Source of the DNA: Desulfitobacterium metallireducens DSM 15288
Lineage (GTDB): Bacteria > Bacillota > Desulfitobacteriia > Desulfitobacteriales > Desulfitobacteriaceae
Direction: 5' to 3'
DNA: 64,000 bases
Assembly: GCF_000231405.2 (NCBI RefSeq)
Contig: NZ_CP007032.1
Location: 1,860,001 to 1,924,000 of the forward strand
Translations under genes and position numbers: made by a program
Notes under the pieces: model-generated
Seen by the model: the letters and a program-made list of their open reading frames with translations, nothing else
What the model was told of the DNA's origin: nothing
The model's database searches: none
Shown here: positions 8,913 through 10,846 of the stretch, in pieces
Layout: every line of letters begins with the position of its first letter
How positions within the stretch are numbered: position 1 is the stretch's first letter

Positions 8913-9031
8913 TACCCCCACTACATTTCAAGACCATATATGTTCCTACGCCATTTTAATTCGAAGACGAGATTGTTTCAAGCCTTGACTTGATTAGACT
9001 GTTCTGCTATATGTTAACAGGGGTATTACCT

Positions 9032-9823
9032 TTATTTAAAATAGGAACATCTAGATTCTCTGCATCCATGAGGGTGACGTGAACTGTGAGTACAAATAAT
9101 TGTTTTACTTGGTGAAGGCAAGAAAACAGTAAAATACCTTTCAACGAATAAAATAGCCTCACTTAAAGCCGTTCTTACAAAGTTTTTACAGCAACAAGGA
9201 CCCGTTTCGTCGCTAATCTTATCCACGATTCTCGCGACTACTTTCATAGTCATCGCTGTTTCTTGATCTTTCGAACAAGCCGCACCTAAAAGGACACTAA
9301 AGCAGGAACCAATGGCTGGGGCAATTCCGCATACTCCTGTGAGTCCACAATATCCTCCAATGGCTTGTCTCTTTGTTCTATTCAGTACTTCAACAATCTG
9401 ATCATCCGTAACCTTGAGTGTTCCTTCATTCTTGATTGCTGCCATCAAAGCGCCTGCTGCTATCCACGCATTTTCGCAACCGAGCATAGGAATATTGTTC
9501 TGGTCCATTAGATATTCGGCAATTTCAAAAGGATTTGCCGATTTACTGCTTAAAACGTATTCTTTTACCGTATCGAAAAGACCTTTCCCATGACATTCAT
9601 CGCAGACATAGTGTCCATTGGGACAAGAAATATTGCCAATTTCTCTTTTCCCACATTGAACGCAAATCAATTCTCTTCCTAAATCGAAGTATTCTAATTT
9701 TCCCCCACAGATTTGGCAGTTCTCAGTATTAGATTCATTGTGCTGACCAGCACTCGAAATCGTTCCTCAACAACTCGATGTCGCGGTGTTTTTATTTTTA
9801 TCCTGATTCTGAAGTAGGTCCAT
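9032..9823 (-). CDS. DUF5714 protein, predicted selenoprotein (UGA at codon 19)
   Basis: Conventional ORF calling begins at a TTG at 9670, but the same frame continues upstream through one UGA (9769-9767) to an ATG at 9823 preceded by AGGAGG. The extension encodes a Ser-Ser-Cys-UGA-Gly motif and then NCQICGGKLEYF, which completes the zinc-ribbon pairs (CxxC, CVQCGK, C...CDECH) of DUF5714 proteins. Later signatures are GGYCGLTGVCG, GPCCCKNF and the C-terminal HGCRESRCSYF. A hairpin with a GGUC loop begins 18 bases after the UGA up to its loop (see SECIS). Read through, the product has 263 residues. The redox or metal role is unknown. It is divergent from another UGA-containing gene. If the UGA is a true stop, the remaining protein would lack the N-terminal Cys motif and a good SD. 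Confidence 0.8.
9732..9761 (-). promoter_or_regulatory. Bacterial SECIS-like hairpin for the DUF5714 UGA codon
   Basis: Minus strand, directly after the UGA: outer pairing GATT/AATC and a perfect inner stem GTGCT/AGCAC (9753-9740) closed by loop GGTC (9748-9745). The loop begins 18 bases after the UGA. From memory, the E. coli fdhF SECIS has the same GGUC loop core at about the same spacing. The structure sits within the coding sequence, as bacterial SECIS elements do. Confidence 0.75.
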
Positions 9824-9952
9824 CAACCCCAGGCCTCCTATTCTCTTTACTTAATAGTCACTGTATTCTTCTCTCCCTTCATAGAATAGATAAACGTGAT
9901 AGTTGTCCAGTCATTGAAAACTTGCAGGAATGAAAGGAAGGTTTGTTCCATT

Positions 9953-10414
9953 ATGCTTAAGTTATCCGGAGACTCTAATATAATCTCAACCTGCCCTATA
10001 TGTAACGGGATGGGTCAGAAAGTACGTATGGAAACGGTTGAACATCAAATACAACCTAGTATTGAAATTGAAGCGGAACAGTTTTTTCTCTGTAGAACTC
10101 CTGAATGTGAAGTTGCTTACTATACTCAGGATGGCCATAAAACCATATTTCAAGACGAATTGATCAATAAGATCTGGTTTAAAAATATTTCATCGCCGAT
10201 TACGATTTGTTATTGTGCAAATGTTACAGAGGAGGAAATCTTACATCATGTAGCCGTAGCTCAATGTTGCTCTACCTTAGACGATATAAAGAAACATACA
10301 GGAGCGAATACCGGATGTGATTGTCTCACGAAAAACCCTGCTGGTCTCTGATGTTCAGCTGTGGTGCAATCGGTGATTGCCAAAGGTCTGGCTATGAGAA
10401 AAATGGAGAAGTAA
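9953..10414 (+). CDS. CopZ N-terminal-like [2Fe-2S] protein, predicted selenoprotein (UGA at codon 133)
   Basis: ATG at 9953 with SD AGGAAGG. Residues 1-132 contain a CPICNGMG zinc-binding pair, a middle CRTPEC pair and a BFD-like C-terminal module, ICYCANVTEEEI and a terminal CDC, as in the N-terminal domain of Archaeoglobus CopZ, which binds zinc and a [2Fe-2S] cluster. Family members as I recall them end NPxGxCC followed by a short helix. Here NPAGL is followed by UGA (10349-10351), then Cys-Ser-Ala-Val-Val-Gln-Ser-Val-Ile, and the frame closes at TAA 10414 just before a terminator. Sec would replace the first Cys of the CC pair. A hairpin with a GGU-containing loop lies 20 bases after the UGA. 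Without readthrough the protein would lose its normal tail. Confidence 0.78.
10364..10381 (+). promoter_or_regulatory. Bacterial SECIS-like hairpin for the CopZ-like UGA codon
   Basis: Stem GCAAT/ATTGC with loop CGGTG (10371-10375), extended by one G-C pair across a bulged T (10365). The loop GGU begins 20 bases after the UGA. The GU in the loop and a bulged U in the lower stem are the features recognised by SelB in E. coli (recalled). Confidence 0.65.
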
Positions 10415-10429
10415 AAGCTCTACAGAGAA

Positions 10430-10470
10430 ATGGCGGTCAAGGTTAAAGTTACCTTGGCCGTCATTTTTTT
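10430..10470 (+). terminator. Terminator after the CopZ-like selenoprotein gene
   Basis: ATGGCGGTCAAGGT pairs with ACCTTGGCCGTCAT and is followed by seven T. It lies 16 bases beyond the TAA that would end the readthrough product, so the transcript does cover the extension. Confidence 0.85.
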
Positions 10471-10498
10471 CAAGTTACGGTTCCACCTGCTCTTCTTC

Positions 10499-10846
10499 TT
10501 ATTTATCTCCTTCTTCTGGGACAATACAAATAAAGGCGAAAGGTTCTGAGCTTATATTCTGAAACTGATGAATTTGATCTCCTGGCACATAAGCAAAAGA
10601 TCCTGCTTCAACCGGATAGTCTTTACCGTCAAGGTGAAGAATTCCCTTGCCTCCTAAAATATAATTGATATGAGGCCAAGCATGTTGGTGCTTAGGCGTA
10701 TGACCGTAAGGGCCAATTTCAAATGAACGCATAACATAGCCGCCCCAACCCTCATTGGGAGAAATCAAGACTTTTTTTAGCACGTTTTCAGCATCAGCAC
10801 TGCTCATACGCGTTCCAAGGACATCTCGTTGATGGGCAACAATCAT
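10499..10846 (-). CDS. Small cupin-domain protein
   Basis: 115 residues forming one cupin barrel. Motif 1 is GPYGHTPKHQHAWPHINYIL (three His plus others for metal), motif 2 PGDQIHQFQN. SD GAGGGAATGAA before the ATG. Substrate unknown; such single-domain cupins are often metal-dependent isomerases, dioxygenases or sugar-binding regulators. Monocistronic. Confidence 0.85.
   Translation of the reverse strand: MIVAHQRDVLGTRMSSADAENVLKKVLISPNEGWGGYVMRSFEIGPYGHTPKHQHAWPHINYILGGKGILHLDGKDYPVEAGSFAYVPGDQIHQFQNISSEPFAFICIVPEEGDK

Follow-up and report, generated by a model that had tools for sequence, protein, structure and literature searches.

The window analysed here is a stretch of 64,000 nucleotides from Desulfitobacterium metallireducens DSM 15288 (contig NZ_CP007032.1), and it contains on its minus strand a DUF5714 gene with an in-frame UGA near the 5' end (Table 1). 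Along that strand, an AGGAGG is followed by a TTG (9826), an ATG (9823), 18 codons of which the last is TGT, the TGA, and a frame that stays open to the TAA; the initial annotation had described an in-frame UGA between an AGGAGG/ATG start and the DUF5714 protein, and exactly these elements are found. The UGA lies in a Ser-Ser-Cys-UGA-Gly motif upstream of the DUF5714 body, and with the UGA written as U the protein begins MDLLQNQDKNKNTATSSCUGTISSAGQHNESNTENCQICGG. Since the TTG is well spaced from the AGGAGG (7 bases) and several relatives start with LID-, with no ATG at the matching place, the true start may be the TTG rather than the ATG, which leaves the selenoprotein argument unaffected.

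Table 1. Features of the DUF5714 locus, in coordinates of the window
Feature	Position	Strand	Basis or detail
Predicted DUF5714 selenoprotein gene	9032..9823	-	263 residues with UGA19 as Sec, TAA stop
Ribosome-binding site AGGAGG	9834..9839	-	from sequence
In-frame UGA, predicted Sec19, after Cys18	9767..9769	-	UGA in relatives, Cys-Cys in remote homologues
SECIS-like hairpin GTGCT-GGTC-AGCAC	9740..9753	-	covariation, consensus fold, loop Gly codon
Putative zinc-binding region, C36xxC39, C54xxC57, C67xxxH71xxC74xxCH78	9590..9718	-	invariant columns
DUF5714 helical Cys-rich domain, residues 86-262; LGCEN, YCGLTGVCG and GPCCCK motifs	9038..9568	-	PF18978, alignment, model
Stop TAA	9034-9032	-	
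Divergent neighbour, CopZ-N-like gene, UGA at 10349-10351	9953..10414	+	zf_CopZ + Fer2_BFD, frame through UGA

The match to DUF5714 (PF18978; residues 86-262) reached E=3.6e-54 and 183 bits against a gathering cut-off of 26.2. In the AlphaFold model (mean pLDDT 84.5), residues 1-33 are predicted to be disordered, and the remainder consists of a small beta part, which probably binds zinc, followed by the helical domain. A Foldseek search of this model against the PDB gave no match better than E=0.28, and a profile search of PDB sequences returned nothing stronger than weak zinc-finger/RING matches, the best at E=0.004.

Conservation of the UGA and of the hairpin behind it

A TGT or TGC followed by TGA was present at the aligned place in all 31 distinct loci from two collections, for which the search pattern demanded TGA, yet every intact relative of the Sec branch either matched the pattern or had Cys there; a locus of Acetoanaerobium noterae (L143) is the 32nd. 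The Cys-UGA loci span several Bacillota families and one deltaproteobacterial MAG, and the codon after the Cys is always UGA, never UAA or UAG. In a set of 83 genomes from the class, exactly one TGA occurs in each of the 29 full-length matches with at least 62% identity, and none in the five matches with at most 33%. In addition, homologues with Cys at residue 19 do exist, as expected if the UGA replaces a Cys of a Cys-Cys-Gly-like motif: Cys-Cys (ECC) stands at this place in L019 and L021-L024, which are Bacteroidetes, Omnitrophota and Desantisbacteria MAGs. A Sec/Cys pair across homologues is a classic sign of a selenoprotein. Neither a look for homologues without the N-terminal segment nor one for relatives lacking the UGA refuted the selenoprotein reading, the UGA being present in the 32 loci.

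The extra N-terminal codons had been said to restore a CxxC pair, and the alignment bears this out: each of its 37 DUF5714 proteins, the non-Sec relatives among them, has C36 and C39. These two residues weigh heavily on the possibility that UGA19 is a true stop and that the protein starts downstream, at TTG 9670 or at a rare start codon. UGA is ordinarily a stop codon, and an AGGA-like sequence lies upstream of TTG 9670; however, from this earliest ordinary start 3' of the UGA both C36 and C39 would be lost, and no ATG, GTG, TTG or CTG occurs between the UGA and C36 in the window or in 23 of the 31 Sec loci. The codon is also invariably UGA and accompanied by a covarying hairpin (below), and a true stop is thus highly improbable. 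A pseudogene or a sequencing error is more improbable still: a few relatives are broken (L029 is frameshifted and L005 frame-disrupted), but isolates of independent origin, from several families and phyla, share this UGA in an otherwise intact frame, and this conservation already refutes such a reading. L005 was also considered as a loss of the N-terminal extension and rejected, as its frame breaks near the start, probably through an assembly error.

The complete genome (3,176,073 bases) encodes SelB (E=9e-110), SelA (2e-167) and SelD (1e-120), and it contains a tRNA-Sec gene (selC) with anticodon TCA, so all four genes on which the initial annotation had made its proposal depend are present; selD itself has one in-frame TGA. 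Because the invariant C36xxC39 follows the UGA, the UGA is conserved and Sec is exchanged with Cys among homologues, UGA19 is almost certainly read as Sec, and the DUF5714 gene is predicted to encode a selenoprotein.

The hairpin begins 13 bases past the UGA, and its GGUC loop lies at 18 bases, as had been noted from the window's letters. The bSECIS model has G in the first two loop positions and the loop 16-37 nt after the UGA (PMC13188914), and the window agrees with it in both respects. Taken singly, the hairpin has an ordinary stability (z = -0.75; 38 of 200 shuffles fold equally well); its significance comes from the comparison with relatives, not from its own stability. Five of the six stem pairs show changes on both sides, and 90.9% of cells pair across 31 sequences. 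The covariation score was 0.349 vs 0.179 for shuffles (0 of 500 reached 0.349), with slid controls staying at or below 0.127, and RNAalifold recovered the same 5 inner pairs. The stem varies in relatives (GTATT/AATAC, GTGTT/AACAC, GGCCT/AGGCT) with the loop kept. Furthermore, the glycine codon in the loop is GGT in 26 of 26 sequences vs a background of 25% elsewhere in these genes. As the GQH peptide is missing in the Cys-Cys forms, this stretch is best explained as conserved as RNA and not as protein. L143 has a different sequence here, which by inspection could pair as CTGCA-GGGG-TGCAG in roughly the same position, its predicted minimum-energy fold being a different one. An Rfam scan of 9000-10500 gave no meaningful match. 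SelB would bind the GGUC-loop hairpin immediately past the UGA and direct tRNA-Sec to UGA19, and the ribosome would then read on into the DUF5714 body to complete the selenoprotein.

Relation to MbdU and the DUF5714 branches

NCBIfam NF045648, the model for the metal-binding double selenoprotein MbdU, matched residues 16-263 with E=2.7e-123 and 412.3 bits, which is below its curated cut-off of 600 bits. MbdU is listed in a 2026 review with the motif CU and two Sec residues (PMC13188914, citing Haft & Tolstoy 2025). A complete MbdU is present in Desulfosporosinus acididurans (L003; 457 aa, Sec16 and Sec395, 789 bits), and residues 25-263 of the window protein are 84% identical to the corresponding part of its first half. 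A DUF2284 match in the window's genome was rejected as spurious, the translations of that region looking like rRNA, and no genuine DUF2284 was found there. Because the window protein has no DUF2284 half and none was found elsewhere in the genome, we file it as a stand-alone single-Sec variant and not as MbdU; by its sequence, it is very probably both a selenoprotein and a stand-alone variant of the MbdU N-terminal domain. Among the loci examined, DUF2284 fusions occur in L003, L122 and L123 and AhpD/CMD fusions in L011 and L014; the rest are stand-alone, which is the commoner form.

The initial reading thus stands for the selenoprotein, the Cys-Sec-Gly motif and the SECIS-like hairpin, and falls for the proposed novelty of the family: the domain and the CU motif are those of the N-terminal half of MbdU (NF045648; PMC13188914). 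The MbdU domain family is already known, and the window protein is a stand-alone variant of it, not a categorically new system. What is new may be the single-domain, single-Sec architecture, which lies outside the NF045648 cut-off and is not separately listed in PMC13188914. The literature searched contained no mention of DUF5714 and no experiment on the family. Standard annotation would shorten the protein or take the UGA as a stop. Since the only Sec-aware model found, NF045648, requires the two-domain form, a set of single-domain selenoproteins, the commonest form here, has probably been mis-annotated. The A. noterae tblastn match lies in a record almost without annotation and is uninformative on how such genes are annotated.

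In a tree of 82 DUF5714 domains, the 31 Sec rows, the five ECC rows and four others formed one clade (100/100); two of these four have an incomplete N terminus, owing to a contig end or a broken frame. This Sec/Cys-tail branch has LGCE or LGCH where the ordinary branch has HGPEHH. The genome of the window carries a second DUF5714 gene (C1:2470527-2471219), a paralogue with HGPEHH and without the Sec arm, which is separated from selA and selD by some 3 kb. The joint occurrence of the Cys-Sec arm and the LGCE cysteine suggests that the two act together; this is a correlation and not a proof, and, one long branch separating the two DUF5714 branches, the co-occurrence may be a single event. The correlation offers a concrete test of the role of Sec in the MbdU group.

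Gene neighbourhood and possible function

Gene context varies between genomes, and in the window the only hint of metals is the CopZ-type neighbour. CopZ-N genes also lie near DUF5714 in L003, L012 and L014, and those of L003 and L012 have the same in-frame UGA as the window. Across this UGA the neighbour reads NPAGLUCSAVVQSVIAKGL, with a hairpin GCAATC-GGT-GATTGC; it is a probable second selenoprotein, judged by sequence, and apparently the GxUC form of CopZ listed in PMC13188914. Genes for RACo, CobW, the heavy-metal exporter ArsP_2 and URO-D are neighbours in L015; URO-D adjoins in L016, RACo and CobW occur in L114, and MetE-like genes lie near L003, L011, L014 and L132. Fusions of DUF2284 and of AhpD domains are likewise seen with arsenite methyltransferase selenoproteins.

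ArsR genes lie upstream of DUF5714-Sec in six loci. Conserved in-frame UGAs were observed in ArsR-family regulators of L011 (2628-2987), L014, L117, L122, L123, L132 and L137; the L137 gene stands apart, and in the six other loci the regulator gene immediately precedes DUF5714-Sec. The UGA falls in the motif [FY]YU[IL]...IWKII, with a hairpin TGATCT-GGA-AGATCA shortly 3' of it. These regulators show a resemblance to TsoR, scoring below the cut-off of NF045707, with a profile alignment that extends through the UGA. The text of the review PMC13188914 makes no mention of ArsR, and the UGA-bearing regulator, which lies outside the window, is possibly the newest item met. In L011 (2968-4092) and L014 (2968-4089), DUF5714-Sec is joined to an AhpD/CMD domain with CEPU, giving a double-Sec fusion that is absent from the list in PMC13188914.

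From gene context and domains, a metal(loid)-handling role of the DUF5714 selenoprotein has about an even chance of being correct. Residues 1-33 would serve as a flexible arm that uses its Cys18-Sec19 pair to capture a soft metal or metalloid, in concert with C116 of the LGCE motif, which is typical of the Sec/Cys-tail branch, and with the conserved cysteines of CGLTGVCG and CCCK; the wider role would be the handling of metal(loid)s or organometals tied to corrinoid methyl transfer. Between binding and transfer of a soft metal(loid), or of methylated forms of it, and redox exchange, the odds are about even. A rather less probable alternative, which concerns the function only, makes the Cys-Sec pair an oxidoreductase site for thiol-disulfide or peroxide chemistry and not a metal(loid) ligand. 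A weak match to PF09719 (C_GCAxxG_C_C, 'putative redox-active'; residues 154-216, E=0.0015, 19 bits vs a cut-off of 27) and the fusions to AhpD/CMD-type CxxU domains in L011 and L014 favour it, but the zinc-site cysteines, the CopZ, ArsP_2, CobW and ArsR neighbours and the name of MbdU point to metals, with which redox chemistry is still compatible. The stand-alone DUF5714-Sec protein might also belong to a module for metal(loid) handling that depends on selenium and is as yet undescribed. Its other members would include the CopZ-type selenoprotein and, in the relatives, a regulator of the ArsR family with Sec in its sensing region that would control the operon; this is a doubtful proposal.

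Comparison with known systems

Like the SECIS of E. coli fdhF, the window hairpin has a GGUC apical loop a short way behind the UGA; it differs in its shorter stem (5-6 pairs). For the C_GCAxxG_C_C family (PF09719), selenoprotein forms are listed in PMC13188914; the window protein shows only a weak similarity to it, the domain make-up is different, and no N-terminal arrangement of zinc site and arm is shown for that family. The ordinary DUF5714 branch shares the domain and the zinc-site cysteines with the window protein but does not have the N-terminal Cys-Sec arm. The closest system is MbdU, with which the window protein has in common the N-terminal domain, the CU motif and the DUF5714 body; MbdU continues into a DUF2284 half with a second Sec, whereas the window protein ends at the TAA after residue 263.
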